Shown here: in pieces, positions 25,981 through 42,205 of the stretch
How positions within the stretch are numbered: the first letter of the stretch is position 1
How the letters are laid out: every line of letters begins with the position of its first letter
Assembly (NCBI RefSeq): GCF_018449545.1
Contig: NZ_JAAVUR010000003.1
Location: 1 to 64,000, forward strand
Origin: Granulicella sp. dw_53
Lineage (GTDB): Bacteria; Acidobacteriota; Terriglobia; Terriglobales; Acidobacteriaceae
DNA: 64,000 nt
Reading direction: 5' to 3'
Position numbers and translations under genes: made by a program
Notes under the pieces: model-generated
Databases searched by the model: none
What the model was told of the DNA's origin: nothing
The model's input: the letters and a program-made list of their open reading frames with translations, nothing else

Positions 25981-26308
25981 GACCTTCTCCTGTATATAAA
26001 TTGACGTGATTCGATAGGCATAAATCAGCTTGGGTTTACAAGAATCAATTCGGCCTATTTGTACATTCGATACTCGAGGGATCGTATAGGATTCATGAAT
26101 GCGAGATTAAAGTATTCGATGGCTCTGGCCCGACGCTACGAGTCAGATCGGCGCTCCCTTTTTATGGCTGCTTCAGCCTAACTTTGAAAATGATAGGAAG
26201 CTTAGACGACACCAGCGCTACCGGATTGTAAAGCTTGTCAACGCGCGACTGGTTATTTTTGGCGACTTTTCTGCCCATGGTTCCAGTTGTTCTGCTACCC
26301 TTGTCCGC
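25981..26308. other. Divergent intergenic region, SDR / DUF885
   Basis: 328 bp. It contains one 28-codon plus-strand frame (26095-26181) that is too short and featureless to call. A weak sigma-54-like word, TGGCGACTTTTCTGCC, occurs at 26260-26275 but its -12 box is poor. No other signal seen. Confidence 0.45.
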
Positions 26309-28173: not shown

Positions 28174-29040
28174 TCAAATCCGATCACACAAGTGCTCATC
28201 TATAGGATCTTGATCGATCAGATGCATGAACTCGCAGCGAAATGGACAAGGCGAACTCATATCATGCAAGACCTTCGCACAGTAGATCTGACGTTTGCCT
28301 TTGACTCGGACATAAATGAGAGCGGCTGTGAGCATGCCTGAGCTAGGCGCAAGGAAGTAAATCCAAATTCCCTCCCAAGCTGATGCGAAGAAGGCTGAAG
28401 AGAAAGAGCGCGCCGGGTTTACGCTGAAGCCTGATAGCGATGAGCAGAAACCATAATAGAAAACAGTTATTAGAGCCACGAAGAACGGAGTCGAGTTGAT
28501 AAGGTGCACTCTGTTTGTCGTGAATAATATGAGCCACATTAGTACTCCAGACAAAATAAATTCTGCAAGGAATGCGACTGCGTTCCCATACCTTCCCGGA
28601 ATAGTTATGACATAAGAGACGGGAGGTGCTGATAAATGTACTCCGAGAACTTCATGCGCCGTGAATACCCCTACCATGGCGCCCACGAATTGGGACAAGA
28701 TGTAGAAGATGGTGTCCAACGGGTGAATGCGACCGAGAAAGAAATAGGTGAGAGTGAGGGCAGGGTTGAAGTGTGCCCCGGTTCGACGTCCAAATGGAGA
28801 ACGAATGATGAGTACTGTTGTGCCACCTACGGCAGTTCCCATCAGCAAGGCCTTACCCAAATCAGACAATGTCGATAGAGGCAATACATCACTGTAGATA
28901 AGCGTTCCAGAGAGACAGATGGAGACCATGAGTACGCACAGTTCAACGGCCTCCATCAAGTACTCCTTCCAGTGGGTAGCTAAGGCCTCGGCTGGAGTCG
29001 CCGAGAAAGGAAGAGTGGTGACGGAGACACAACGCTGCAT
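28174..29040 (-). CDS. Aquaporin / MIP-family channel
   Basis: 288 residues from the ATG at 29040, which has an AGGTG ribosome site; a further in-frame ATG at 29073 lacks one. It has six membrane helices and both Asn-Pro-Ala pore motifs, GAHFNPALT and GFSVNPARS. This conducts water or small neutral solutes across the inner membrane. The long cytosolic C-terminus (about 45 residues, with four Cys) is unusual and has no motif. It is separated from the upstream MOSC fusion gene by about 190 bp. Confidence 0.92.
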   Translation of the reverse strand: MQRCVSVTTLPFSATPAEALATHWKEYLMEAVELCVLMVSICLSGTLIYSDVLPLSTLSDLGKALLMGTAVGGTTVLIIRSPFGRRTGAHFNPALTLTYFFLGRIHPLDTIFYILSQFVGAMVGVFTAHEVLGVHLSAPPVSYVITIPGRYGNAVAFLAEFILSGVLMWLILFTTNRVHLINSTPFFVALITVFYYGFCSSLSGFSVNPARSFSSAFFASAWEGIWIYFLAPSSGMLTAALIYVRVKGKRQIYCAKVLHDMSSPCPFRCEFMHLIDQDPIDEHLCDRI

Positions 29041-29231
29041 ATTACACCTGGGCAAATGGGGGCTTTGAGGCATTGAGCTAAAGCCGCCCCATCCACGTTC
29101 AAGGAACCTTCTTTGGGAGGGCTAAGTTTGATTAGGACGAATAACCCGCCCTCGTTAGCTCCGTGGCTTACGCGTCGAGTAGATTATCCAGTTGCGAAAC
29201 TAATCCTTTATTAGACTTACAAAGCTATCGA

Positions 29232-30977
29232 TTACAGATCTAAATCAACCACGGATTCCGGCGTCGAGCAACAGATGAGGGCTTGGCCCATGCCGGGCGG
29301 TTCCAAAGGGTCCGGTGCGTAGCGAAGACTGCCTTGCAAGATTCCGCATTCGCACAAATGGCAAACTCCTGTACGACAAGACCATTTCACTGGAACGTCG
29401 CACGCCTCGGCCAGCTCCAACAAACTCTTAAACTTGTTGTCCCATGGCACAACCAAACCGCTGCGAGTGAATGATACGAGTGGTCCACTTCCGGGGGCGC
29501 TATCTGGAGGGTGTGGAGGCTTGGACATCGTATTCGTTATCCCAGGCCCGAAGACCTCCAGATGTACCTTATCCTGGGGAACGCCCAGAGAAGTCAAACA
29601 GCGAACCATATCCTCTAGAAATCCCGTAGGTCCGCAAACATAGAAGTCGGCATCTACGGGAACGCCAAGCTCTCTTATGCGTGCTAGGTCCAGGTGTCCC
29701 AGGATGTCGAAGTCTGTGCCGAGTCGCTCAGTCGGATGTGGTTGGCTGTACGCTATTACCGAGCGACTTCCTGGGATCTCGCCAAGAAGTTGCCGGGCTT
29801 CTTCTGCAAAGACATGCTCCTCGGTGCAGCGCGCACCGTGAATCCACCATACTTTCCGAGGAAATTCGGAGCTACTAGATGCAAGAGCATTCAGCATCGA
29901 AAGAACTGGAGTGACGCCAATTCCAGCGCTCAACAGTACGACCGGTCCCGCGCCAGTTCGCAATACGAAGTTTCCGCGTGGAGCGCTACTCTCGAACACG
30001 TCGCCGATCTTCGATGTGTCCGCAAGAAACCGGCTACCCGGGCCACTCTCACGCTTTACGCTGATGCGATAGGTGCCAGCGCTAGAAGCCCCCGAAATAG
30101 AATAATTGCGCAGGATAGGTCTAGAAGCTTCGTCAGGGGAGATCTGCAGCACCAGATACTGGCCAGGAAGCGCAGGCGGAAGCGGAGACTTGTCCGCAAG
30201 CTCGAATACGAGTGAAGTCACCTCGCCTGTCTCCCGATGTACCTCCGCGACCCTCAGAGCCCGGAAACCAGCCCATGCAGGTGGAGATGAAATAGACGAT
30301 GTGAGTCCGGCATTTCCGTTGTGCTCTCCCCTCTCATCCGCCTTGAGCAACTCTTCCAATGAGTCTTTCCATCCTGGACTCAGCGCAGGAATGCGCACTG
30401 CGATCGCGATGCGGTCAGGATTGTGGTTCGGGAGGTATAGTAGAGAATCCATTTCCGCAACCGTGATCTTTCCTGGTCCATCCTCGATCTTAAGAATTTC
30501 GTCTCCTGCGCCAACCTCCCCCTCCTCAATCACACGGAAGTAAAAACCTGGCCTTCGGTGCGAGACAACCAAAGCCGGCATCTGCGGATTATTCATTCGG
30601 ATTCCGAGTCGATAGCAGGTTACACGGGGCTGCGTGACCTCGAAGACTGAGCCGCCGATTCTGTATCGGTCTCCAATACAAACTTCGTCATCCGCGAGAC
30701 CTTCGACGGTGAAGTTCTCTCCAAACTGTCCGTACTCAAAATCAGATCGGCCAAGTTGGTGTGCCCAGTAGCGATAGGCTTCTAACTGATAGACCATCAC
30801 GGCACGTTGTTCACCACCATGACCCTGAAGATCCGCCTGCCCATCACCATCCAGGTTCAATCGGCGCGCGACAACTCGGTGAGGTACGGAGTACTTCCAA
30901 ATTGCGGTACGTACCCGCTTTCCTTGCCATTCAACTTCGCGTGGAAGACCTACATTGACGGACATCAGTTTTGGCAT
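29232..30977 (-). CDS. MOSC / ferredoxin-reductase / [2Fe-2S] ferredoxin fusion
   Basis: 581 residues with three domains in order: an N-terminal MOSC domain (about 1-210), with the sulfur-carrying Cys121 in FEVTQPRVTCYRLG; an FAD/NAD-binding ferredoxin-reductase module (about 235-475: LRNYSISG for FAD, GIGVTPVLSML and FYVCGPTGFLEDM for NAD); and a C-terminal plant-type [2Fe-2S] ferredoxin (about 490-581: CRTGVCHLCECG plus a fourth Cys in LICCS). MOSC proteins such as YiiM reduce N-hydroxylated bases with molybdenum cofactor, so this looks like a self-sufficient version with its own electron chain. No other molybdenum gene is nearby. Confidence 0.92.
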   Translation of the reverse strand: MPKLMSVNVGLPREVEWQGKRVRTAIWKYSVPHRVVARRLNLDGDGQADLQGHGGEQRAVMVYQLEAYRYWAHQLGRSDFEYGQFGENFTVEGLADDEVCIGDRYRIGGSVFEVTQPRVTCYRLGIRMNNPQMPALVVSHRRPGFYFRVIEEGEVGAGDEILKIEDGPGKITVAEMDSLLYLPNHNPDRIAIAVRIPALSPGWKDSLEELLKADERGEHNGNAGLTSSISSPPAWAGFRALRVAEVHRETGEVTSLVFELADKSPLPPALPGQYLVLQISPDEASRPILRNYSISGASSAGTYRISVKRESGPGSRFLADTSKIGDVFESSAPRGNFVLRTGAGPVVLLSAGIGVTPVLSMLNALASSSSEFPRKVWWIHGARCTEEHVFAEEARQLLGEIPGSRSVIAYSQPHPTERLGTDFDILGHLDLARIRELGVPVDADFYVCGPTGFLEDMVRCLTSLGVPQDKVHLEVFGPGITNTMSKPPHPPDSAPGSGPLVSFTRSGLVVPWDNKFKSLLELAEACDVPVKWSCRTGVCHLCECGILQGSLRYAPDPLEPPGMGQALICCSTPESVVDLDL

Positions 30978-31074: not shown

Positions 31075-32532
31075 TTAAGATGCGGCACTCGAGAATAGAG
31101 AGATAAGTCCCTCAGGAATCGTAGGATGTGCGAGGACCGCCTCTCGGAGCGCGGTGTAGGGCATTCCGCCAAGCATGGCGATCTGCACACACGCCATAAT
31201 CTCACCCGCACCAACCCCGAATGCCGCGAAGCCGAGGATGTTGTCGCTGTCACGCTCCACCAGACACTTTATGAACCCGCGCGTCTCCATAAGGCTGCGC
31301 GCCCGTAGCACGGCCTCCATCGGGACCTTGAATAGGCGATAGGCAATACCCTTATCCTTCGCCTCCTTCTCACTCATTCCGACGCGCGCAAATTCGGGAT
31401 CCGTGAAAAGGCAGAAGGGTACCTGTCTGCCGGTAGTCACCCGGTCTCCGCCGAGTATGTTGTCACGAACCACACGGAAGTCATCCTCGCTGATGTGCGT
31501 GAATTGTGGACTACCTGCAACCTCTCCCACTGCCCACACTCCCGGAGCGGTGGTCTCTAGCCGTTCATTTACTTTGATATATCCCTTCTCCGTCAGTTCC
31601 ACTCCGGCGAGTTCCAACCCAATATCTTTCGTGTTCGGCACACGTCCAGATGCGACCAAGAGGTGTGTCCCCTCCAGCGAACTCTCCACTCCGCCCTGCT
31701 CGAAAGCGACGCGCACCGACTGTCCCGATACTCCGGAGATATTTCTAATCCTCGCATTCAGAATCAGTTCGATGCCTTCCTCTTCGAAGAGGCTCTGCAA
31801 GCCTTCGGTGATATCATCATCCTCGCCGTGAATGACGCGATAATTGCGGTCTAGAATCGTGACTTTGCTACCGAATCGGCGCATCGCCTGTGCGAACTCC
31901 AACCCGACATAGCCGGCTCCGAGAACGATCAGGTGTTCAGGTATGACGTCGAGTTCCAGAGCCTCGACGTGAGTCAACGGCTGTGCCGATGCAAGGCCAG
32001 GGATATCTTCGATGAAAGCGTGCGTTCCTGTACCAATCACTACATTCTTACCAGTAAGCAATCGCTTCGTTCCGTCCGGCAGTGCTGCCTCAAGCATCTT
32101 TGGTCCCACAAAGCTGCCCGATGCCATGATCAGTTCCGCTCCGCTTTGCTTGTAGAGAGCAAGATGTGTGTCTACCAAGCCCTGCACCATTCCGCGTTTG
32201 CGATCTCTCACAGCAGACATACTTATGCGGAAGTTGTCGATACTAACTCCGAACTCCTCACTATGCCGAACAAAGTGCGCGATTTGGGCCGTATGAATGA
32301 CATTCTTACTGGGAAGACATGCGATATTTGGGCAGGCCCCGCCGATATACTTGCGTTCCACCACTGCAACGCGCTGGCCTCTCCCTGCGAAGGTCCAAGC
32401 CAACAGTTTCGAGCCTGCACCGCTACCGAGGATGAGGAGGTCGTAAACCTCCGGTTGCTCTTGAAGATCCATATCTGTGTTCTCCGTTGTAGGCTCTGTG
32501 CCAAAATTTATCTTGCTCTTGGGTAACTTCAT
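31075..32532 (-). CDS. Class I flavoprotein disulfide reductase (mercuric-reductase-like)
   Basis: 485 residues: FAD-binding GSGAGSKLLAWTFAGRG, the redox disulfide in GGACPNIACLPSK, a central NAD(P) motif (LGAGYVGLEFAQAM), a second FAD block (GVWAVGEVAGSP), and a C-terminal dimerisation domain with the catalytic His-Pro pair (LAHPTIPE). It belongs to the family of dihydrolipoamide dehydrogenase, mercuric reductase and RclA. It lacks an N-terminal heavy-metal domain and the C-terminal Cys pair of true MerA, so a Hg(II) role is unsupported. Start is uncertain: Met1 at 32532 or Met21 at 32472. Monocistronic on this strand. Confidence 0.9.
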   Translation of the reverse strand: MKLPKSKINFGTEPTTENTDMDLQEQPEVYDLLILGSGAGSKLLAWTFAGRGQRVAVVERKYIGGACPNIACLPSKNVIHTAQIAHFVRHSEEFGVSIDNFRISMSAVRDRKRGMVQGLVDTHLALYKQSGAELIMASGSFVGPKMLEAALPDGTKRLLTGKNVVIGTGTHAFIEDIPGLASAQPLTHVEALELDVIPEHLIVLGAGYVGLEFAQAMRRFGSKVTILDRNYRVIHGEDDDITEGLQSLFEEEGIELILNARIRNISGVSGQSVRVAFEQGGVESSLEGTHLLVASGRVPNTKDIGLELAGVELTEKGYIKVNERLETTAPGVWAVGEVAGSPQFTHISEDDFRVVRDNILGGDRVTTGRQVPFCLFTDPEFARVGMSEKEAKDKGIAYRLFKVPMEAVLRARSLMETRGFIKCLVERDSDNILGFAAFGVGAGEIMACVQIAMLGGMPYTALREAVLAHPTIPEGLISLFSSAAS

Positions 32533-32815: not shown

Positions 32816-33589
32816 TCAGACGGCTTTGACCTCGCCGCCATCCATGCGAACAGATGTTCCTGTCATCCACTTCGCCGCTGGCGACACCATGTAGGCCATG
32901 AGGTCAGCAATCTCTTCTGCCTTGCCAAAACGAGCGATGCCGGTCTCTTCAGGGAACTTCTTCATTGCCTCTTCCACCGTGAGATTGTGTGCAGGCGCCC
33001 ATTTTTCAAAGAAAGATTTTCTCCGTCCGGTCATCACAGCACCCGGCACCACGCTGTTGACCTGCACTCCATCCTTGATGCCTTGCTCCGCGAACGCCTT
33101 TGCCAGCGCGATGATTGCCGCATTAATGGAGGCCACCGCCGCAAAGCCGGGTTTCGGATCGAGAGCGGCACTCCCCGAGATCAAAACTACAGATCCGTTC
33201 GAAGCCTTCAATGCATCCCAAGCTCGGACGGTTAAGCGACGCGCACCGTGAAGCTTGAGCGCCAGACCATCTTCCCACTGCACATCCGTCATCTCGAACA
33301 AATCAATTTGGGGAACTGCCCCGGCAATATTGAGGAGAGCGTCGATTCTGCCGAAACGCTCAAGCGTCCCCGTGACGACGGTCTCTGTCGACGCAGGCTC
33401 GCGCAGGTCAAGTGCATAGATCAATGATTCAGCACCCGCGGCAGTCACGGATTCTGAAGTCTTTTGCAATTCATCCTTATTTCTGGCCACGAGTACAACG
33501 GCTGAAAAATCGCGCGCCAGTCGCGATGCGGTGGCGCGACCGATTCCCTGGCTTGCGCCAGTGACGATGGCAACAGAGTTGAGGCTCAT
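32816..33589 (-). CDS. SDR-fold protein lacking catalytic Tyr and Lys
   Basis: 257 residues. The Rossmann cofactor loop is intact (TGASQGIG, 10-17) and the NIAG motif and a Ser (ISGSAA) are present, but the usual Tyr-x3-Lys is absent: the aligned positions are Val152 and Asn156 (FAAVASINAAII). The family consensus there is YxxxK, so classical SDR catalysis looks unlikely; it may bind NAD(P)H as a regulator or be a decayed enzyme. AAGGATC lies 5 bases before the ATG. It is third in the operon with two alpha/beta hydrolases, 88 bp after the previous stop. Confidence 0.85.
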   Translation of the reverse strand: MSLNSVAIVTGASQGIGRATASRLARDFSAVVLVARNKDELQKTSESVTAAGAESLIYALDLREPASTETVVTGTLERFGRIDALLNIAGAVPQIDLFEMTDVQWEDGLALKLHGARRLTVRAWDALKASNGSVVLISGSAALDPKPGFAAVASINAAIIALAKAFAEQGIKDGVQVNSVVPGAVMTGRRKSFFEKWAPAHNLTVEEAMKKFPEETGIARFGKAEEIADLMAYMVSPAAKWMTGTSVRMDGGEVKAV

Positions 33590-33677: not shown

Positions 33678-34376
33678 TCAATCACCAAGTGTTTGATGTG
33701 CAGCTTCTAAAATTACTTCAACCACAAGATCTGGTGCGGTGAGCATTGGAGAATGGTCTACTTGATGCGAGCGAACAGTAGCGCCCATACGATTGGCCAT
33801 GTAAAGCTGTGTCTCTGGACTAATCATGCGATCCTCTTCCGCGAGAAGATACCACGACGGTTTCGTACCCCATGTGGGTCTAGGGGCTTTCTCTTGGATA
33901 CATTTCACTGCGATCGGCCGCTGAACCGCAAACATGATCGTTGCTTGCTCTTGCGAAACCCTATGAGCCACCGCCTTACTGAAACCTTCTTCTGGCATCC
34001 AGATAAAACCGTGCTCATCAGGCGCCAGGCGCGGAGCGTCCGGATGCGGCTCGGCGCGATAAAACACATCCGCGACCGTCTCTCCCTCATCAGGCGCCAA
34101 CGCCGCCACATAGACCAGTGACTTTACCCGGCTGTCATGAGACCCGGCAATCACAGCACCGCCGTAAGCATGGCCGGCTAGTATTACCGGACCAGTCGTT
34201 CTCTCTAGCACGCGTTGGAGAGCGGCTATGTCATCCGTGAGCGATGTAAGGGGAATTGGAGCGCACGTTACCTTGAACCCCTGGTGCCTCAGAGGCAGAA
34301 TGACATTCTGCCAGCAGGTTCCGTCAGCCCATGCTCCGTGAACCAGTACGACTGTTGTGTCTTGCAGAGAATTCAT
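33678..34376 (-). CDS. Alpha/beta-hydrolase protein with Ser-to-Ala nucleophile
   Basis: 232 residues of the alpha/beta-hydrolase fold: oxyanion start LVHGAWADG, nucleophile elbow GHAYGG and a late His in SHQVDHSPML. The elbow normally reads GHSYGG; codon GCT at residue 70 gives Ala instead of Ser, so ordinary hydrolysis should be blocked. The catalytic Asp and His seem to remain. Such Ser-less relatives exist, some acting as binding proteins or lyases. Its start overlaps the upstream hydrolase stop by 4 bp (ATGA), so the two are translationally coupled. Confidence 0.88.
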   Translation of the reverse strand: MNSLQDTTVVLVHGAWADGTCWQNVILPLRHQGFKVTCAPIPLTSLTDDIAALQRVLERTTGPVILAGHAYGGAVIAGSHDSRVKSLVYVAALAPDEGETVADVFYRAEPHPDAPRLAPDEHGFIWMPEEGFSKAVAHRVSQEQATIMFAVQRPIAVKCIQEKAPRPTWGTKPSWYLLAEEDRMISPETQLYMANRMGATVRSHQVDHSPMLTAPDLVVEVILEAAHQTLGD

Positions 34377-35323
34377 ACACCGCTACCTTTCCGGAGAGAT
34401 ATGCCGTTCGCCTCTAAGAACTCTTTTATCGCAGTGGCAATTTCTGCGGAGTGCGTCTCTGTTGCAAAATGTCCCGTATCGAGGAACTGAATGCGAGCCT
34501 TCGGCAAATCCTTTCGATAGCCCTCGGCACCCGCAGGGATAAAGAACGAATCGTTCCTGCCCCAGATCGCTAGCAAAGGGGGCTTTGACTTTCGAAAATA
34601 TTCCTGAAAGGCGGGATAAAGCTTAAGGTTCGATTCATAATCGAGGAACAGGTCAAGCTGAATCTCTTTGTTCCCTGGCCGCTCTAGCAAAGCCGTATCT
34701 AACGTGTAAGACTCCGGAGCCACACTGTCAGGATTCGCAACACCGTGCGTGTACTGCCAGCGAGTTCCTTCCAAAGTCAAGATATTCTTCCGGATCACAT
34801 CCCGGTTTTCGGCCGTGGGCGAAGCCCAATAAGTCCTGATCGGTCCCCAAGCATCGCCGAGCCCCTCTTCGTAGGCATTACCATTCTGCGAAATAATTGC
34901 TGTAACCCGTTCCGGGTGATGCATTGCCAAACGGAAGCCCGTCGGCGCTCCGTAGTCGAACACATAAATCGCATATCGCTCGAGGCCGAGCGCGCCAGTA
35001 AAGGCCTCCAGCGTTCCAGCCAGTGCGTCGAAAGAATACGTGTACTTTCGTTTTTCCGGAACTTCCGTAAATCCAAATCCAGGAAGATCCGGCGCGATCA
35101 CCCTGTAGCTGTCGGCGAGGCGGAGCATAAGGTCGCGGAACATGAAGGACGATGTGGGGAACCCATGAAGCAAGAGCAGCACAGGTGCGGCTTCGTCTCC
35201 GGCCGATCGGTAGAAGATCTTGATGCCGTCTGCCTCGACCCTGTGTACGGATGCAACAGGAATGACGGACTGGAAACTGGTTGGAGAGGTGTACTCTGCC
35301 AACGTTGAAACTATCTGACTCAT
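34373..35323 (-). CDS. Alpha/beta hydrolase with Asp nucleophile (epoxide-hydrolase/dehalogenase-like)
   Basis: 316 residues from the ATG at 35323, chosen because AGGGGAG lies about 7 bases upstream; the frame extends further upstream without a ribosome site. The nucleophile elbow reads YVFDYGAP, with Asp123 in place of Ser, as in haloalkane dehalogenases and epoxide hydrolases. The dehalogenase Trp after the Asp is Tyr here, so dehalogenation is less likely. Other marks are oxyanion HGFPTSS, PDLPGFGFT and the terminal His in LDTGHFATE. Likely opens an epoxide or ester in the cytosol. It is the first gene after a sigma-54 promoter at 35438-35453. Confidence 0.9.
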   Translation of the reverse strand: MSQIVSTLAEYTSPTSFQSVIPVASVHRVEADGIKIFYRSAGDEAAPVLLLLHGFPTSSFMFRDLMLRLADSYRVIAPDLPGFGFTEVPEKRKYTYSFDALAGTLEAFTGALGLERYAIYVFDYGAPTGFRLAMHHPERVTAIISQNGNAYEEGLGDAWGPIRTYWASPTAENRDVIRKNILTLEGTRWQYTHGVANPDSVAPESYTLDTALLERPGNKEIQLDLFLDYESNLKLYPAFQEYFRKSKPPLLAIWGRNDSFFIPAGAEGYRKDLPKARIQFLDTGHFATETHSAEIATAIKEFLEANGISLRKGSGV

Positions 35324-35437
35324 AAAGGCTCCCCTTGATCTGTTGGTGTTGATGATCCGCTGATAGGCGCCCTGCCAATCCAACAGCGACTCCATCACAC
35401 GAAGCCGAATGGCCCTACCTAGCCGATGGCTAAGCAG

Positions 35438-35453
35438 TGCAACCAACACGCCA
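35438..35453 (-). promoter_or_regulatory. Sigma-54 promoter (-24/-12) of the hydrolase operon
   Basis: On the minus strand the sequence is TGGCGTGTTGGTTGCA, matching consensus TGGCAC-N5-TTGCW with GG and GC in the correct phase (GG-N10-GC). It lies 115 bp upstream of the first start codon (35323). No competing gene overlaps it. It is one of three such promoters near a sigma-54 activator gene. Confidence 0.78.
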
Positions 35454-35537
35454 ACCCCGATTCAAGTGGGCAAAAAAAATAAGTCGTTTGCGCACAGCAA
35501 TATACCTTCGAGAGGAGAGCATAAAACCAAGCTCCGA

Positions 35538-35572
35538 CTGACAAATTCGCGACGGACGACCAACACTGTCAG
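35538..35572. promoter_or_regulatory. Candidate enhancer site for sigma-54 activator (hydrolase operon)
   Basis: CTGACA (35538-35543) and TGTCAG (35567-35572) form an inverted repeat 85-120 bp upstream of the -24 box, a usual enhancer distance. The same half-site appears upstream of the egtB promoter (39215-39240). Confidence 0.5.
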
Positions 35573-35857
35573 AATCTAGTCGTATCGTTGGGCACCGCAG
35601 TTGGCTTTTCGAATCCCAATTAGAAAAATTCCGTAAAGGGCATCATCAACAGTTTCGGCCCACGGTACTTCGACACTTAGCGTCAGACCCATTGAATCAG
35701 AATGCATGGTTGAGCAGAATGCCCCGCACCTCGCAAGAAGGGTCACAGCGAGCTAGCTTGTCGCGTGCGGCCGCTCGTCATAGACAACATTTGCGGTATA
35801 CCACCCGAGATAGGATTCACTCAACTCCGATTCGGAGCGCCCTTACTGGGATATCGA

Positions 35858-36727
35858 TTAACCTCGCACTTGGTTGAATAGTCGCAATCGCGCGAGAACC
35901 ACCTGCTTGACCGATTCTTCTGCTATAGGCAACAGCTTATAGGGAACAATCTCTCGCGGCTGCTTGGCGAAGGCGTCTTCCAGACCGTGTCGCCATGCAA
36001 CACGCAGTTCAGTATTGATGTGAACGATATTTATTCCCGCCGCAACAGCTTCCAGGAGATCGTGGTCTTCTGTTCCGGAACCGCCGTGCAAGGTCAGTAA
36101 GCTTCCAGACACACTCTTAATTTCCCGGATCCTTTTTATGTCAAGGCGTTTCTTTGCGTCCCCTTGCACCATGGCTTGCAGCATCCCGTGCGAATTGCCG
36201 ACCGCTGGAGCAAGGATATCAACTCCGGTGCTTTCTACGTACTGCTTCGCTTCTTCTGGAGCAGTAAGCACCTTCGAGAGCTCAGGCATCGATTCGTGAA
36301 TCTCAGACCCTGTTCCGATGTTTCCGATCTCTCCTTCTACAAGGATCATCGGATTAATCGACTTCAGTACCTCTACTGCCTGCTTGGTTTGCTTGACGTT
36401 CTCCTCAAATGGCAGTGCGGATAAGTCAAACACAATAGAATCGAATCCAGCTTTGGCTGCCGCAATTGCGCTATCCAAGGAATGTGTATGGTCGGCATTG
36501 AGAAAGATAGGAACGTCATGCTCCTCACGCAGGCTCTTTACCAAAACCGCGATTTGCGCAACACCTAAAAATGCCCGCTCACCTTCCGATGCACCGACGA
36601 TTACCGGCACCTTCAACTCTCGAGCTGACGCAAATACAGCTTTCAGCAGAATCCAATCAGAGATATTGAAGTGGCCGATGGCCTTCCGGTTCTTTTGCGC
36701 TTCTTCTAATAGACTTCGTAAGTTCAT
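35858..36727 (-). CDS. Class II fructose-bisphosphate/tagatose-type aldolase
   Basis: 289 residues. Class II zinc aldolase: metal ligands Asp79-His80 in LNADHTHS, VEGEIGNIG, GNSHGM (second His) and LHGGSG. It is close to the KbaY/GatY branch in length and motifs. It cleaves a ketose bisphosphate into dihydroxyacetone phosphate plus an aldehyde; the exact sugar is unclear, and a glycolytic role is not implied by its context. GGAGG lies 7 bases before the ATG. It follows the DUF417 gene by 60 bp, probably in one transcript driven by a sigma-54 promoter. Confidence 0.93.
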   Translation of the reverse strand: MNLRSLLEEAQKNRKAIGHFNISDWILLKAVFASARELKVPVIVGASEGERAFLGVAQIAVLVKSLREEHDVPIFLNADHTHSLDSAIAAAKAGFDSIVFDLSALPFEENVKQTKQAVEVLKSINPMILVEGEIGNIGTGSEIHESMPELSKVLTAPEEAKQYVESTGVDILAPAVGNSHGMLQAMVQGDAKKRLDIKRIREIKSVSGSLLTLHGGSGTEDHDLLEAVAAGINIVHINTELRVAWRHGLEDAFAKQPREIVPYKLLPIAEESVKQVVLARLRLFNQVRG

Positions 36728-36787
36728 TATTTTCCTCCGGCGATCTGCCCATTATTTGCTGGCAGAATGTATCCCTATCGCCCGCGT

Positions 36788-37336
36788 TTACTGAGAACTC
36801 GCCCCTTGGGGTCGCGCATCATGTTCTGCGTCCTCGATGACGCTTTGGTCGACCCAGCCGAGCAAAGCCCTCAATGCGTCTTGCTTCAAAAGATAGAAAG
36901 ACACGGCTAAGAGAACCACGTCCTTCATAAGAAAAGCCACATTTCCAACCATAGCGGGAAAACCACCAGCCGACGCTGCCCAGCCATCCGGCATGAAAGG
37001 GATGATCGTAATCGTTGTGATGAAGGTAAGTACCGACCCGAGAGCACCCAATACTCCCAATATTTTATTCCAGAAACCGGCGAGTAGTAGCAATCCAAAC
37101 AACCATTCCGATACACCCAAAAAATAGGCGGATCCTTTGATCCCGAAGACCGGATACATCCAAAAGATGAGGGGTCCATGAGTAAAAAATGGGATCAACC
37201 CCTGTGCCTCATAGTTGAACCACTTCTGGTATCCGAAAAAGAAGTAGATGATTACCATCGATGCCCGAATGAGATGGTAGTCGAGTTCACCCTTAAAGAG
37301 TCCCATCTTCGCCAAAGCTTTTAAAAGGAAGCTCAT
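36788..37336 (-). CDS. DUF417 (YkgB/RclC-like) inner-membrane protein
   Basis: 182 residues with four membrane helices, including FFGYQKWFNYEAQGLIPFF and a C-terminal LLAVSFYLL. This is the DUF417 family; E. coli RclC of the reactive-chlorine resistance operon belongs here. Function at the molecular level is unknown; a stress or thiol-handling role is inferred from family. AAGGAAC lies 6 bases before the ATG. A sigma-54 promoter at 37472-37487 lies 136 bp upstream, with the aldolase downstream. Confidence 0.9.
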   Translation of the reverse strand: MSFLLKALAKMGLFKGELDYHLIRASMVIIYFFFGYQKWFNYEAQGLIPFFTHGPLIFWMYPVFGIKGSAYFLGVSEWLFGLLLLAGFWNKILGVLGALGSVLTFITTITIIPFMPDGWAASAGGFPAMVGNVAFLMKDVVLLAVSFYLLKQDALRALLGWVDQSVIEDAEHDARPQGASSQ

Positions 37337-37471
37337 TTTTTGTTCCTTTCGTTCAACGTTCTTATGTTGAAGACAATCAGTGGTTTATGCATCAACAAGC
37401 GCAGATGTGACTTGGCTTGCCGGGTTGAAGGAGTACTCGCTCCCATGTATGGAGCATGCCCACAGCAAGAG

Positions 37472-37487
37472 TGCAACCTGGGGGCCA
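37472..37487 (-). promoter_or_regulatory. Sigma-54 promoter (-24/-12) of DUF417-aldolase
   Basis: Minus-strand sequence TGGCCCCCAGGTTGCA matches TGGC-N7-TTGCA with GG-N10-GC spacing. It lies 136 bp upstream of the DUF417 start. Second of the three promoters. Confidence 0.8.
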
Positions 37488-37522
37488 TTGCAAAAGAGAT
37501 TTATTGACCATCGAACTCTTTG

Positions 37523-37554
37523 ACCTAAGTGACTCTCCCACCGAATACTTAGGT
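37523..37554. promoter_or_regulatory. Perfect inverted repeat ACCTAAGT/ACTTAGGT, possible operator
   Basis: Arms 37523-37530 and 37547-37554 are exact reverse complements with a 16-bp spacer, centred about 50-60 bp upstream of the -24 element. It does not resemble the CTGAC repeats at the other two promoters, so it could be bound by another protein. Confidence 0.45.
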
Positions 37555-37565
37555 TGCGGCCGCAG

Positions 37566-37620
37566 GTCAGTGAAGCTTAATATTTGCATGACGAACCCGC
37601 GACCAAAATCCGACACTGAC
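37566..37620. promoter_or_regulatory. CTGAC-type inverted pair, candidate enhancer (DUF417-aldolase)
   Basis: GTCAGTG (37566-37572) and CACTGAC (37614-37620) are exact reverse complements 79-133 bp upstream of the -24 box. CACTGACG also appears near the egtB promoter at 39202. Weaker than the other two candidate sites because it shares only CTGAC, not CTGACA. Confidence 0.35.
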
Positions 37621-37731
37621 GGGATTCAGATGTAGCGACCGTCGTAGAGCACACTGGCTGACCAAGTAAACATATGTGAGTGAAGCGCTCGATGTGTTAG
37701 TCCAGGTTGAACTACTCCGTTTTTAGTTCTT

Positions 37732-38988
37732 TCAAATTGCCAAACGTATTCCTGTGACCTGCCAGCGCGTTTCCGGATTATGGAAATTGCGGTAAGTCGC
37801 CCGCACATGATCCGCAGGCGTAAGGCACGATCCTCCCCGCAAAGTCATCTGACTAGACATGAATTTACCGTTGTATTCCCCCAGTGCACCGGGGAGAGAT
37901 TTATATCCTGGATAACCCACATAAGGACTGGCGGTCCATTCCCAGCAGTCTCCAAAAAGTTGCTTAACGCCTAGACCATTCGCGGTCGTGGGGTGTAACC
38001 GTCCTGTATCAAGCAGATTCCCGTGCCGGCGCTCCTTGCTCGCGACCGATTCCCACTCCGCCTCTGTCGGAAGCCGACAGCCACGCCAGCGCGCGAAGGC
38101 TTCCGCCTCGAAGAAGCTAATGTGGCATACCGGAGTGTCGATCAGCTCCGAGAGGCCATGCCATCCTTTGAGCGTGAAGACGCGCCATCCCGTTGCATCG
38201 CCAGAATGTCGTTCCCAGTAAAGCGGTGCTTCCCAGCCTGCTTGCTCTACCGACTCCCAGCCTTCAGAAAGCCAGAGTGCCGGCCGCGTATATGCGTCAT
38301 CAGACATAAACTCCAAATACTCACCGCAGGTGACTTGGCGGCTCGCAAACTGAAACGGTTCTAAATAGACCTTGTGGCGCGGAGTCTCGTTGTCAAAGCA
38401 AAAGTCCAAAGGCTTCTCGACGTTCATACCGATTTCGATAAGTCCACCCTTAAAGTTGAGCCATTCAAGTTGAGGGATTGAACGGGTGGAGTCCTTCGGC
38501 AAAGCTGTAGTTCCGTAGGAGGGGCGCAACGGATTTAAAAAAAATGCGTGCTTGATATCAGTCAGTGCCAGTTCCTGGTGCTGTTGTTCGTGGTGTAGAC
38601 CCAGCAAGATGCGCCGCGATGCCTCTTCGTCGATGGAGCGGGAAAACAACCTTTCCATCTCTTGATCGACATACGCGCGGAAAGCCAAGATCTCGTCGAG
38701 CGATGGTCGCGAGAAGGATGACCGCAGCTTCTTCGCAGGAATCTCCTCACCCAGCGAGATGTAATAGCTATTAAAGAGCCGATGAAACTCTTCTCGAAAG
38801 GGACGGTAGTCGGTCAGATAGGGTCGTAACACAAAGGTCTCGAAGAACCATGTGGTGTGTGCCTGATGCCATTTGACTGGACTGGCCTCTGGACACGACT
38901 GCACCATTTGATCCTCGGCGGACAAAGTAGAGACAAGAGAACGCGTCATTGACCGTACAGCTTGATATTTCGGCTCAAGAAGACACAT
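37732..38988 (-). CDS. egtB: EgtB-like sulfoxide synthase
   Basis: 418 residues with the EgtB plan: N-terminal DinB-like domain with metal His in KWHQAHTTWFFE (His41/44) and in LHHEQQHQEL (His133, His137), then a formylglycine-generating-type C-type-lectin domain (RGCRLPTEAEWE, GDCWEWTASPY, VTGIRLA). In mycobacteria EgtB uses iron and O2 to join hercynine to a thiol on the way to ergothioneine. No egtD methyltransferase, egtC, egtA or egtE gene is seen here, so the acceptor may differ (an OvoA/SenA-type role cannot be excluded). No clear ribosome site at 38988; Met14 is an alternative start. A sigma-54 promoter is 104 bp upstream. Confidence 0.9.
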   Translation of the reverse strand: MCLLEPKYQAVRSMTRSLVSTLSAEDQMVQSCPEASPVKWHQAHTTWFFETFVLRPYLTDYRPFREEFHRLFNSYYISLGEEIPAKKLRSSFSRPSLDEILAFRAYVDQEMERLFSRSIDEEASRRILLGLHHEQQHQELALTDIKHAFFLNPLRPSYGTTALPKDSTRSIPQLEWLNFKGGLIEIGMNVEKPLDFCFDNETPRHKVYLEPFQFASRQVTCGEYLEFMSDDAYTRPALWLSEGWESVEQAGWEAPLYWERHSGDATGWRVFTLKGWHGLSELIDTPVCHISFFEAEAFARWRGCRLPTEAEWESVASKERRHGNLLDTGRLHPTTANGLGVKQLFGDCWEWTASPYVGYPGYKSLPGALGEYNGKFMSSQMTLRGGSCLTPADHVRATYRNFHNPETRWQVTGIRLAI

Positions 38989-39091
38989 GGAGACAACTCA
39001 TATATTGAGATTTCGACGTAGGTCTGTACGTGCAGGCGAGGGAGTTAATCGTCACACGGCAATAGGTTTCGAAGTCGGCACGACTTTATAG

Positions 39092-39107
39092 AGCAAGTAA
39101 TGCGCCA
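39092..39107 (-). promoter_or_regulatory. Sigma-54 promoter (-24/-12) of egtB
   Basis: Minus-strand TGGCGCATTACTTGCT fits TGGCRC-N5-TTGCW almost perfectly with GG-N10-GC spacing. It lies 104 bp upstream of the egtB start. Third of the three sigma-54 promoters; the one nearest to the activator gene. Confidence 0.82.
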
Positions 39108-39201
39108 AAGAACAACACCGTCTCATCGGCAATCTGACACTATAAATTTCTTATTTTTGGGTGGCTTGGTGGTACAGGCAGCCGAACACAATGCGCACGA
39201 T

Positions 39202-39240
39202 CACTGACGGAAACGCTGACAGATCCCCGCCACTGTCAGC
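39202..39240. promoter_or_regulatory. Inverted repeat GCTGACAG/CTGTCAGC, candidate enhancer for egtB
   Basis: Perfect 8-bp arms at 39215-39222 and 39233-39240 with a 10-bp spacer; a further CACTGAC half-site at 39202-39208. About 95-133 bp upstream of the egtB -24 box. The half-site matches the repeat at 35538-35572. It could instead act as a terminator for the activator gene (46 bp after its stop), but no T-run follows. Confidence 0.5.
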
Positions 39241-39285
39241 TCTCCGTCGCATAAGACGTCGTGGCATATCGTGTAAAAGCGAGGA

Positions 39286-41445
39286 TCATTCAGAACGCAA
39301 TCGACTGTCGACCATCTTTTGTTGTACCGATACGGAACGGTTTATTCCGAGCTTCTGCATTTTGTAAACCAAGGAAGTACGTTTCATCCCCAACCGCTCC
39401 GCAGCACCGTGACGCCCACCGACGACCCAGTTGCTCGCATCGAGTACCCGGAGTATATGGTCTCGTTCCACATCCTCAAGACCCGTCAACGGCGCGTTTG
39501 ATCCCTTGTAGCTACTGAACGGTTCCAATTCAGAGGTCGGAGCACGTAATACTGTATGTGGAGAAAGAATCACTGCTCGTTCGATAAAGTTTTGCAACTC
39601 CCGAACGTTTCCAGGCCAACGATACCGTACCAATGCATCCATTGTCTCAGCAGGAATTTCATCGATCTTTTTATTCATCCGCCGTCCATAGAGTTCTACA
39701 AAATGGCGGACCAGCTTCGGGATATCCTCAGTTCGCTGGCGCAAGGCCGGAACGTGAATCGGAAATACTTTCAGTCGATAATAAAGATCTTCGCGGAAAG
39801 TAGTCTGCTTCACCATTGCAGTCAAGTCGCGATGGGTGGCTGCGATCAGACGGACATCAACTTTATGCGTGTAATTGCTGCCGAGTCTCTCGAACTCTTG
39901 CTCTTGGAGGACACGTAACAACTTCGCCTGAAGTTCCAGTGGGATGTCACCCACCTCGTCAAGAAAGAGGGTGCCTTTGTCCGCGAGTTCAAAGCGCCCT
40001 GTCTTCTGTGCAACCGCTCCGGTGAAAGCTCCTCTTTCGTGCCCGAACAACTCGCTTTCAAGGAGACCAAGTGGTATCGCTGCACAGTTCAGTTTGACGA
40101 AAGGCCGTTCCCGGCGGCCACTTAAATTATGGATACCGCGCGCGATCAGCTCCTTGCCTGTTCCCGTTTCGCCGAGGATCAGAACGCTCGAATCTGTAGG
40201 AGCCACGATGGACACCAGATCCAACGCGGTCTTCAACGCTGGACTATCTCCAATAATGTTTCCAAACTCAGCACGAATTTCCGCTTCGAGATAGAGTCTC
40301 TGTTTGGTCTCTTTGTCTCGATCCCTTATCGCCTTTTCGTAGTCCAACGCGTTTTCAACAGCTATGGCTACTTGACGCGCGACCTGTTCAAGAAAGTCGA
40401 TATCATCGCGACCAAACTCCCTCTCAGACCGCGTCAGGGCAGCTAATACGCCTACTACGCCGCTTCTGCTTAGAAGCGGCAGGTCGCATCCCGATACCAG
40501 GCCCTCATCCATTACCCGTTGATAGAAACGCTGACCGACGTTGCTACCAAAACTTTCCGGATCGTAGCGAAGTTCTTCGAAGCTTTTAAAGTGTTGAGTC
40601 TTCCCGGTTCGGAAGGCCTTGCCGCAGATAGAACCATGGGTGGGGATGATAGTCCCATCACGCAGGGAGCCCCGCGCCTCTGGATTATATAGAGTGGTTA
40701 CGCGCAACTCCCCACTGTCCACATCGGGCAGGATCAAGGCGCAAAAATCACATCGCGTCACCCTCAAGAGATCCGTAGACAAGGTCTCTACCAGACGACG
40801 CATATCTAACTTCGATGCCATGCTGTTGGTAGTCTCCAGTAACAGGCGCAACCGATCGCGTTCAAGCCGCAACTTTTCTTCATTCAGGTTGCGCTCAATC
40901 GCAATTCCGGCGATGTGGCTCGAGTTCTCGATCAACTGCAAGTCGGCGGCGTCAGGGCTGCGCGCCTCACGATAATGAATGGCGAAAGTCCCGAGGACTT
41001 GACCTTCGCTCGTAAACAAGGGACGCGACCATACCGCACGAATTCCATAAGGCAGTAACAGATGACGATAATGATCCCAGACCGGGTCCTGGAGGATATC
41101 GGTCACATAAACTGGCTCTCTTCGATAAACGGCTGTCCCACAGGATCCACCTTTAGGGCCAATGAGCATGGACCCTAGGTCTGTGATGAATCCGGGAAGG
41201 CTAGGCGCCGCAGCGCAATAAAGTTGCTTTCCGTCATCGTCTGGAAGCCAGATGGTGCACAATGTGCCGTCATCTCGAGATTCGACCAATTGGGCAATGA
41301 TCGCGAGCACCTCAGACAATGGGGATCCTGCAAGAATCAACTTTAAAAGATTGAGCACCGACTCGCCGGAGAACAGACCTGAGCCGGTCTGCACCCGCTC
41401 ACTGCTCGATTCGGGAGATGCGGGAGATTGCGCCGTTGTCTCCAT
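39286..41445 (-). CDS. Sigma-54-dependent activator with two GAF domains (NorR/FhlA-like)
   Basis: 719 residues. Two GAF sensor domains lie at about 45-200 and 215-380. The AAA+ domain (about 415-640) has Walker A GETGTGKE, the sigma-54 contact loop GAFTGA, Walker B LFLDEVGD and the R-finger region. A Fis-type helix-turn-helix ends the protein (NWVVGGRHGAAERLGMKRTSLVYKMQKLGI, positions about 655-690). It binds an enhancer and uses ATP to open sigma-54 promoters when its GAF domains sense a signal, which is unknown here. Three sigma-54 promoters lie within 6 kb downstream. No sigma-54 promoter was found upstream of its own gene. Confidence 0.96.
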   Translation of the reverse strand: METTAQSPASPESSSERVQTGSGLFSGESVLNLLKLILAGSPLSEVLAIIAQLVESRDDGTLCTIWLPDDDGKQLYCAAAPSLPGFITDLGSMLIGPKGGSCGTAVYRREPVYVTDILQDPVWDHYRHLLLPYGIRAVWSRPLFTSEGQVLGTFAIHYREARSPDAADLQLIENSSHIAGIAIERNLNEEKLRLERDRLRLLLETTNSMASKLDMRRLVETLSTDLLRVTRCDFCALILPDVDSGELRVTTLYNPEARGSLRDGTIIPTHGSICGKAFRTGKTQHFKSFEELRYDPESFGSNVGQRFYQRVMDEGLVSGCDLPLLSRSGVVGVLAALTRSEREFGRDDIDFLEQVARQVAIAVENALDYEKAIRDRDKETKQRLYLEAEIRAEFGNIIGDSPALKTALDLVSIVAPTDSSVLILGETGTGKELIARGIHNLSGRRERPFVKLNCAAIPLGLLESELFGHERGAFTGAVAQKTGRFELADKGTLFLDEVGDIPLELQAKLLRVLQEQEFERLGSNYTHKVDVRLIAATHRDLTAMVKQTTFREDLYYRLKVFPIHVPALRQRTEDIPKLVRHFVELYGRRMNKKIDEIPAETMDALVRYRWPGNVRELQNFIERAVILSPHTVLRAPTSELEPFSSYKGSNAPLTGLEDVERDHILRVLDASNWVVGGRHGAAERLGMKRTSLVYKMQKLGINRSVSVQQKMVDSRLRSE

Positions 41446-42205
41446 GAATTACTCTTTCTTCGCGCCACGCCGCGACAAAGGCCCCGACCATGTGGCAACT
41501 TAACATTACGTATGGATTATAAAAAGGAAGGGTGTTGGCCATCGACCGGGTCGCCGGCAACTCGTCGCCTTCTCCGGATTAGACCTCTCGATCGTGGGGA
41601 GCGGATCTTCGCTCGACGATCACCGCAGCGTCTCATCACCTTATCTTATGCGTTGCGGAAACAGCTCACTTCAAAACTAACTAACTTCCATTTAAATCAT
41701 AAAAGCTCGGCACTTGTCAACGCTACCTTCACAGGTTACAGTTCATTAGAACTCAGTCCGAAGCACACACCATCAGAATCAATATCAGCCGGAGACATAA
41801 CTCACTGGATCAATTTTGGCGCTCGTCACAGAAGCTGCCATCGTGTTGCTCACAACCGACAATTTCGAACTCGTGCCGTCCTGGTGGGGCTCGAAGCGTC
41901 GCTTTAACAACTGCAACCGACAGCTCCAATTAATCTCTTGCATTTCTGGCTTTCTTCGAAGTAGACTCGGCATGCTTTCCAGATGCAACGACGTCCTTCA
42001 TTTGGTCTACGTCTACCAGAGCTTCACAGGGCCTAGCCTCACTGTTTCTATTGCGTCGTTACTCTCAGTTTGTCTCAACAAACTTGCTTAGCGTCTTGGG
42101 ACACGCGTTGATTTAAGAACGTGACGCCAAGAGGATCAATTGTGAAATTGATAAGCCCCCCGCTCCAATAGATCCCCGTCCTTTAAATCAAATACGAGAG
42201 AGAAC
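41446..42205. other. Divergent gene-free region, 760 bp
   Basis: Plus-strand frames at 41428-42091 are short and lack ribosome sites or motifs. The only clear element is the palindrome at 42135-42152. The promoter of the sigma-54 activator should be here, but was not identified. Confidence 0.5.
42135..42152. promoter_or_regulatory. Palindrome ATCAATTGTGAAATTGAT, possible operator
   Basis: Exact 7-bp arms ATCAATT/AATTGAT around GTGA, 54-71 bp upstream of the next start codon (42206). Position and symmetry fit a repressor or activator site. Confidence 0.5.

Follow-up and report, generated by a model that had tools for sequence, protein, structure and literature searches.

An FhlA-like activator and three-part promoters point to a sigma-54 regulon in Granulicella sp. 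dw_53

The first 64,000 nucleotides of contig NZ_JAAVUR010000003.1 from Granulicella sp. dw_53 (Acidobacteriota; assembly GCF_018449545.1), called the window here, encode a sigma-54 activator and, beyond it on the same minus strand, three transcription units: egtB, a DUF417 gene with an aldolase gene, and a run of two hydrolase genes and an SDR oxidoreductase gene. A preliminary description of this DNA proposed that the activator senses a small molecule and switches on all three units from −24/−12 promoters. The locus raises the questions of whether these promoters are real, whether this activator works them, and what it might respond to. Our answer to the first two is that the window very probably carries the core of a sigma-54 regulon run by this activator, as predicted from a long sequence block that stands at a fixed distance upstream of each promoter and is found in the same genomes as the activator.

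The three sites, described originally as minus-strand sequences with GG-N10-GC spacing, are the only exact matches to TGGC-N7-TTGCW in the window. They are TGGCGCATTACTTGCT for egtB (39092..39107), TGGCCCCCAGGTTGCA for the DUF417-aldolase unit (37472..37487) and TGGCGTGTTGGTTGCA for the hydrolase-hydrolase-SDR unit (35438..35453), and occupy the gaps before egtB, the DUF417 gene and the first hydrolase gene, where the last base of the box is followed by the start codon after 104, 136 and 115 bp, respectively, which agrees with the 104–136 bp given before. Three same-strand boxes in three intergenic gaps (1226 bp) compare with an expectation of 0.015 (P about 6e-7, uncorrected for the chosen place). 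With up to one mismatch the window holds 41 matches against 31.4 expected. A sigma-54 weight matrix with approximate weights put the three sites in second to fourth place, the first place going to a site at 52507 that sits within an open reading frame of 1105 residues. The whole genome (6.15 Mb, 56 contigs) has 154 exact matches, many of them probably due to chance, compared with 100 for the backward pattern. The box alone is therefore weak evidence, and we rejected it as proof. The background scan suggested in the preliminary description thus did find equal-scoring sites elsewhere in the genome, and it is the upstream block that supplies the support. A weaker candidate at 26260 (TGGCGACTTTTCTGCC) was not included in the regulon, because its box is weak and it has no upstream block.

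The block came to light in an alignment of the egtB upstream region of the window with those of four relatives, in which the −24/−12 box is conserved together with a strongly conserved stretch about 130 bp further up. It is about 57 bp long with the core CCGTCAGTGnCGG, and the same block precedes the DUF417 gene and the first hydrolase gene (ABH1) in the window. The consensus of 22 blocks is GCGACGGAAAn-CCGTCAGTGnCGG-AnATCCGTCAC-AAATTTGTCAG, in which a GTCA half-site recurs in both inverted and direct orientation (core CCGTCA-N-TGnCGG). These blocks were gathered by sequence regardless of any box, yet 21 of the 22 have a box (GG-N10-GC plus at least three of the five other consensus positions) 117–135 bp past the core start. 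A 57-position model (R1) was built from the 22 blocks with promoter sequence excluded, and finds all three window blocks on the minus strand: the egtB block at 39197..39251 (core CTGACAGTGGCGG, first base 39239; 37.0 bits, E 1.5e-8; 132 bp before the box), the DUF417-aldolase block at 37584..37630 (core CCGTCAGTGTCGG, first base 37622; 39.6 bits, E 2.3e-9; 135 bp) and the hydrolase-unit block at 35531..35583 (core CTGACAGTGTTGG, first base 35572; 43.3 bits, E 1.6e-10; 119 bp), which is the top-scoring match in the genome. An alternative scan with the palindrome CCGTCANTGACGG, allowing up to three mismatches, gave 46 minus-strand matches in the window compared with 30 expected; it was too loose and was superseded by R1. 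The three sites hence combine GG-N10-GC and the TGGC/TTGCW consensus upstream of genes with a conserved block at fixed spacing, as expected for sigma-54 promoters, and the block is a putative upstream activator sequence for the cognate activator.

The R1 model gives five strong matches in the 6.15-Mb genome, namely the three in the window and two on other contigs, at C8:126697-126745 (E 3.0e-6) and C54:242780-242827 (E 9.0e-5). The next match is the reverse of a known site (E 0.025), followed by one at 0.07, which leaves a gap up to about 0.02. Both remote blocks have an exact box, TGGCGCGTTGCTTGCT at 128 bp on C8 and TGGCCAATCGGTTGCA at 136 bp on C54; at the genome's own rate, the chance that both have one within the 20-bp interval is about 6e-8. 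The C54 block precedes a gene for a DUF2306 membrane protein. The C8 block precedes a short stretch that matches EgtB in its C-terminal part (51% over 70 residues, E 8e-17), and after this fragment comes a gene for a response regulator with 72% identity to the one encoded behind egtB in the related locus L177 (loci of relatives are cited by L numbers, genomes by G numbers). This makes the C8 site look like what is left of a second unit of egtB and response regulator, with its promoter retained. The whole arrangement, block and exact box, degraded egtB fragment and single-domain response regulator, spans L131:7741-8746 (G000:C8:125740-126745). The preliminary description missed the shared block, the middle element discussed below and the two remote sites, and in calling the regulon local it was too narrow, given these two sites and the RclA-like, aquaporin and aldolase genes that share the block in relatives.

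Among 299 genomes of the class, the activator (E ≤ 1e-200) occurs in 16, the block (E ≤ 0.001) in 18 and both in 15, with a Fisher P of 1.8e-21 that treats related genomes as independent. Because regulator and switches recur together in relatives, we regard them as one control circuit. Block and activator are on different contigs in the dw_53 genome (C8 and C54) and in G223. They are also apart in G217, where each lies within about 110 bp of a contig end, probably because of a break in the assembly; the second block of G153 is likewise near a contig end, and may have the same origin. The use of off-contig blocks as proof of independence from linkage was dropped, as it is valid for C8, C54 and G223 but not for G217 and G153. 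A scan of 69 loci (1.05 Mb), comprising 62 loci of more distant homologs from genome_contigs, four around weaker matches in the own or related genomes and three stretches of the own genome, gave nothing below E 1e-3 except two known sites.

These counts bear on two alternatives. It could be that the boxes are real sigma-54 promoters but that a different enhancer-binding protein binds the block, the neighbouring activator being a bystander. Other candidates do exist, with 14 Sigma54_activat matches at full strength (>200 bits) in the genome, and three of the 18 block-positive genomes have no activator ortholog at the threshold used. On inspection, however, the activator gene of G153 is truncated at a contig end, in G102 a relative of the activator lies in fragments next to block and aldolase gene, and G294 has a 27-bp match with no relatives of the window proteins nearby. 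The block is moreover present in all but one of the activator-positive genomes, in most ortholog loci it comes directly after the activator gene, and the loci of the distant homologs have no block below E 1e-3. We consider a bystander very unlikely. The other alternative, that the three box matches are due to chance, can draw on the 154 exact genome-wide matches against 100 for the backward pattern, but is contradicted by the shared block, the fixed spacing and the conservation before the same genes, and we give it hardly any credence. By contrast, there is strong support for a single activator that turns on the three units by way of sigma-54: the block at its fixed spacing, the block's specificity to the orthologs and its co-occurrence with the activator.

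The spacing was analysed further in 51 blocks from the own and related genomes. Overlaps on the opposite strand, matches below about 16 bits, a 17.4-bit match in L072 and own-genome matches with E ≥ 0.02 were left out, as were the duplicate loci L134 and L151 (the same as L041), L138 (L040), L139 (L036) and L156 (L053). With the box defined as GG-N10-GC plus at least three of the five other consensus positions, 45 blocks have one starting 117–136 bp from the core start (21 of the 22 blocks used to build the model, and 24 of the 29 outside that set). In the other 20-bp bins (n = 37) at most 4 of the 51 blocks have a box; the 103–122 bin has 8, mostly from the short-spacing class described next. 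An earlier count with other control boxes had found a box at 100–150 bp in 29 of 30 blocks, compared with 7% of controls of the same size. The 47 blocks that have any GG-N10-GC at 110–142 bp fall into two classes, with spacings of 117–122 bp (7 blocks) and 128–136 bp (40 blocks) and none at 123–127 bp, so that the classes differ by about one helical turn.

Between block and box lies a middle element, RYTTR (often ACTTA or ATTTG). For 42 of the 51 blocks it begins at +87 to +92, counted from the start of the core. In the window it is ATTTA at 39143..39147 for egtB (+92), ACTTA at 37526..37530 for the DUF417 gene (+92) and ACTTA at 35480..35484 for the hydrolase unit (+88), all on the minus strand. 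It keeps its place in most of the short-spacing promoters, the exceptions being L038, L043 and L045, which implies that the helical turn is lost between middle element and box. The full consensus of the DNA-bending protein IHF is WATCAANNNNTTR; an IHF-like core, RA-N4-TTR, occurs at +70 to +110 in 30 of the 47 blocks compared with 44 of 282 control boxes. The genome has three genes of the HU/IHF family, and IHF may bind at the middle element.

Several observations weigh against the regulon as drawn here, or against its extent. A full box is missing from the 117–136 bp interval in six of the 51 blocks (L179, L148, L039, L147, L149 and L150), L179 and L148 having a weaker GG-N10-GC at 131 bp, and in nine of the 51 the middle element is not in its usual place. 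The genome G278 has the activator, and no block was found there at stricter search filters. Conservation in relatives, which the preliminary description had named as a test, was found, but with gaps: L034 (Edaphobacter lichenicola X5P2, which carries the cluster) has no block at E ≤ 1 for its DUF417 gene, and the aldolase block of L177 is weak at 16.5 bits. egtD is present elsewhere in the genome and was rejected as a regulon member since no block was found for it, so control of the whole ergothioneine pathway is unsupported. Two proteins that are compared below with RclA and RclC fail the corresponding NCBIfam tests by a wide margin (336.8 of 740 bits and 62.8 of 275 bits, respectively). Finally, the evidence for the regulon is all sequence-based.

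The activator itself (39286..41445, minus strand) is a protein of 719 residues, for which Pfam recognizes two GAF stretches, a Sigma54_activat domain (244.6 bits), an AAA lid and a Fis-type helix-turn-helix (HTH). The GAF-GAF-AAA+-Fis organization proposed for it is thus correct, and the GAFTGA loop is intact; the loop is invariant in 16 of 16 orthologs and present in all of the 120 listed homologs. An AAA+ domain with GAFTGA and a C-terminal Fis-type HTH is what characterizes a sigma-54 enhancer-binding protein. rpoN is encoded elsewhere in the same genome, and the activator is predicted to act via RpoN and ATP hydrolysis. Its best NCBIfam match is the FhlA model, at 507.4 bits against a cut-off of 830, and the NorR model gives 353.2 bits against 476, so that it qualifies as an equivalog of neither. 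The best reading is an FhlA-like enhancer-binding protein that is not FhlA. FhlA, the formate hydrogenlyase activator of enterobacteria, has the same GAF-GAF-AAA+-Fis HTH architecture; no formate hydrogenlyase family is, however, found among the scanned target proteins here. Many of the 120 listed homologs are named FhlA in the annotation of the Joint Genome Institute (JGI), which looks like misannotation of a large family. The distribution is patchy, with a full-length match (E ≤ 1e-150) in 2 of 25 genomes of the same genus, its own included. Autoregulation was considered and rejected, as the block model finds no block upstream of the activator gene in the window; in L177 the block between the activator and aquaporin genes is oriented toward the aquaporin. 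The 760 bp upstream of the activator (41446–42205) contain neither a clear gene nor a block.

The gene identities given in the preliminary description were confirmed with Pfam and NCBIfam. EgtB (37732..38988), the sulfoxide synthase of ergothioneine biosynthesis, scores 522.8 bits on TIGR03440 (cut-off 360), matches PDB 8qf6 with E 3e-128 and contains HHEQQHQE, which we take to be the iron-ligand His motif; it has the features of a member of this family. The DUF417 membrane protein (36788..37336; Pfam 92.9 bits) is RclC-like, and the class II aldolase (35858..36727) scores 238.9 bits on PF01116. ABH1 (34373..35323) is an alpha/beta hydrolase by Pfam, closest by sequence in the PDB to haloalkane dehalogenases. 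Its FDYGAP aligns with the HDWGSA stretch of a haloalkane dehalogenase, presumably the one that holds the Asp nucleophile, and ABH1 is probably of the Asp-nucleophile (haloalkane dehalogenase/epoxide hydrolase) type. It is followed by a small alpha/beta hydrolase, ABH2 (33678..34376; Abhydrolase_6, 77.9 bits), and the SDR oxidoreductase (32816..33589; adh_short_C2, 131.8 bits). All of these genes lie on the minus strand, as do those that follow.

Next comes an RclA/MerA-like flavin disulfide reductase (31075..32532; NCBIfam), which has a redox-active CxxxxC dithiol (CPNIAC, within GGACPNIAC) of a kind common to flavin disulfide reductases in general. The minus-strand run goes on (28174–30977) through a YiiM-type MOSC domain fused to a ferredoxin-reductase module (29232..30977; Pfam) and a MIP-family aquaporin (28174..29073; Pfam). 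These three genes have no block of their own in the window, and may be served by the ABH1 promoter or expressed independently of it. The RclA-like gene is a probable further member of the regulon, having its own block and box in L178, where the gene matches in two frames. The MOSC-reductase and aquaporin genes are possible members, with a block upstream of glyoxalase-DUF427-MOSC genes in L037 and a block and box before a MIP gene in L034 and L177. In the MOSC fusion (29232–30977) one protein joins the MOSC domain to an FAD/NAD/2Fe-2S reductase module, and together they may make a self-sufficient N-hydroxyl reductase.

The activator search in genome_contigs retained the best 80 of 574 confirmed relatives; among these 80 loci, 17 are at 64–80% identity and L056 is at 58%, all in Acidobacteriota/Terriglobia. 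Gene content was compared in 20 of the 80, two of which are more distant homologs (L044 and L066) and two of which are contigs under 6 kb. The most constant neighbour is ABH1, downstream of the activator in 16 of the 20 loci (best match at least 72% identity). The SDR (at least 72%) is found in 11, the RclA-like gene in 6 (two of them partial), and EgtB immediately after the activator in 4. The genes or runs that follow blocks are EgtB, ABH1 (-ABH2-SDR) and DUF417, as in the window, and also the aldolase in L175 and DM13 proteins in L036 (with DoxX), L041, L045, L046 and L054. In L035 the target run includes a luciferase-like monooxygenase and a flavin reductase, and L034 includes a zinc dehydrogenase. 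Some blocks, such as those of L137, L144 and L152, have no assigned target. At L175:6105-8796 there is no intact activator, and the aldolase retains its block and box beside a fragmented activator relative, an apparent decay of the regulon.

As to what the activator responds to, the gene content and the conserved cysteines of its first GAF domain (GAF1) lead us to suggest, tentatively, an electrophile or oxidant. Cys63, Cys77 and Cys102 are invariant in 16 of 16 orthologs, and also identical in 120 of the 120 listed homologs, a figure biased upward because these were selected by GAF1 similarity. In 66 more distant homologs, whose alignment in GAF1 may be poor, the Cys63 and Cys77 positions are mostly Ile, Leu or Val and the Cys102 position is Cys in 2; the count takes in the six commonest residues per position, which cover 64, 63 and 60 of the 66 sequences, respectively. 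GSCG-type GAF motifs are known from other sensor families, and in view of these Cys102 may be generic rather than specific. In the AlphaFold model of the activator the GAF domains are good and the AAA+ domain poor (mean predicted local distance difference test score, pLDDT, 63.9); Cys63 and Cys77 are placed on strands that follow one another, and Cys102 close to where a helix begins (residues 31–200, block pLDDT 79–93). The cysteines could form a thiol switch, a metal site or a structural feature. That the signal is sensed through them is possible, and we hold it more loosely than the electrophile or oxidant itself. A search of the PDB with GAF1 returned weak matches only (best E 0.003), and they do not hint at a ligand.

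Two other signals would leave the regulon as it is. In NorR, a GAF-controlled AAA+ activator, nitric oxide is sensed and a cluster of binding sites lies upstream of the sigma-54 promoter, three of them being reported for norVW (PMC2941729). The present activator is similar in being GAF-controlled and in having several clustered half-sites, and the reductase module of the MOSC fusion resembles the reductase part of the NO-inducible flavohemoprotein (217 bits, cut-off 432). However, its NorR score is 353 of 476 bits, it has two GAF domains where NorR has one, and its targets differ, the scanned ones including none of the NO reductase, dioxygenase and flavodiiron families; a response to nitric oxide, or to another gas or metal-bound ligand, is in our view distinctly unlikely. 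There is rather more to be said for a catabolic role, in which an organic growth substrate is sensed and is broken down by a pathway made up of the hydrolases, SDR, aldolase and luciferase-like oxygenase. It would fit with ABH1 as the most constant neighbour, and with the monooxygenase and flavin reductase of L035 and the zinc dehydrogenase of L034. It does not readily account for EgtB, DUF417/DoxX proteins, the RclA-like reductase, the aquaporin and DM13 proteins, which are not obviously catabolic, and each unit has a promoter of its own and may be present or absent, a pattern also seen in stress regulons. We regard it as somewhat improbable.

The explanation we consider likely overall is of an FhlA-like activator that works three-part promoters of a sigma-54 regulon, perhaps directed against a reactive electrophile or oxidant. 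Activator dimers would attach to the block with their Fis-type HTH and join into an AAA+ ring; a bend at the middle element, perhaps made by an HU/IHF protein, would bring the ring to the sigma-54 polymerase waiting at the box; and ATP hydrolysis, acting through the GAFTGA loop, would open the promoter. Control would lie with GAF1, which would keep the AAA+ domain in check as long as no electrophile or oxidant has modified or occupied GAF1; once induced, EgtB, the hydrolases, SDR, DUF417 and RclA-like proteins and aquaporin would remove the compound and its damage. Binding, looping, ATP-driven opening and repression by GAF are taken over from what is established for sigma-54 activators (with NorR as the model; PMC2941729). 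A bolder version, of which we are doubtful, has a thiol-sensing activator that directly detects electrophiles or reactive chlorine or thiocyanate species, a dedicated sigma-54 electrophile-defence regulon of soil Acidobacteriota, and an architectural protein that bends the three-part promoter at a fixed place, with one helical turn gained or lost and nothing between.

There are parallels to known systems. The MhqR quinone regulon of Firmicutes places a DoxX-type membrane protein, a glyoxalase-type enzyme and an alpha/beta hydrolase under one electrophile-responsive regulator; genes of the same three types would be under one regulator here, but MhqR is a MarR-type repressor, whereas here there is an enhancer-binding activator with sigma-54. 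In the Rcl system of E. coli (RclR-RclABC, defence against HOCl and HOSCN), too, a flavin disulfide reductase of the RclA kind shares its regulon with a DUF417 membrane protein. The Rcl system differs in being controlled by RclR rather than by an enhancer-binding protein, the two proteins here are below the RclA and RclC cut-offs, and many further genes are included. RclC, a DUF417 protein, is required for HOSCN resistance (PMC12096828). A literature search, limited in depth and mostly without subscription papers, found little on sigma-54 in Acidobacteriota, and neither this regulon nor any sigma-54 electrophile or ergothioneine regulon was found described; a word search of the regulon survey PMC12316311 gave no occurrence of 'acidobacteri'. 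A sigma-54 regulon is of a known kind, while the literature searched yielded nothing on this activator family, its block or its set of targets.

Proteins that are often annotated as 'formate hydrogenlyase transcriptional activator' thereby gain a list of targets and a precise promoter grammar that can be used in searches. Should an electrophile or oxidant prove to be the signal, one sensor would govern the synthesis of ergothioneine, an Rcl-like pair and DUF417/DoxX proteins of unknown function, and their function would be directly testable. For the study of DNA looping at sigma-54 promoters, the existence of two spacing classes that differ by about one turn amounts to a natural experiment.

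Two minor observations may be added. A short match to the block core at L176:7355-7381 has an exact TGGC-N7-TTGCA box 124 bp off on the other strand, with no relatives of the window proteins near. In L177 (13155-14568), genes for a TMEM175-type potassium channel and a protein with sigma-70 regions 2 and 4, similar to extracytoplasmic function (ECF) sigma factors, lie between the SDR gene and the DUF417 block.

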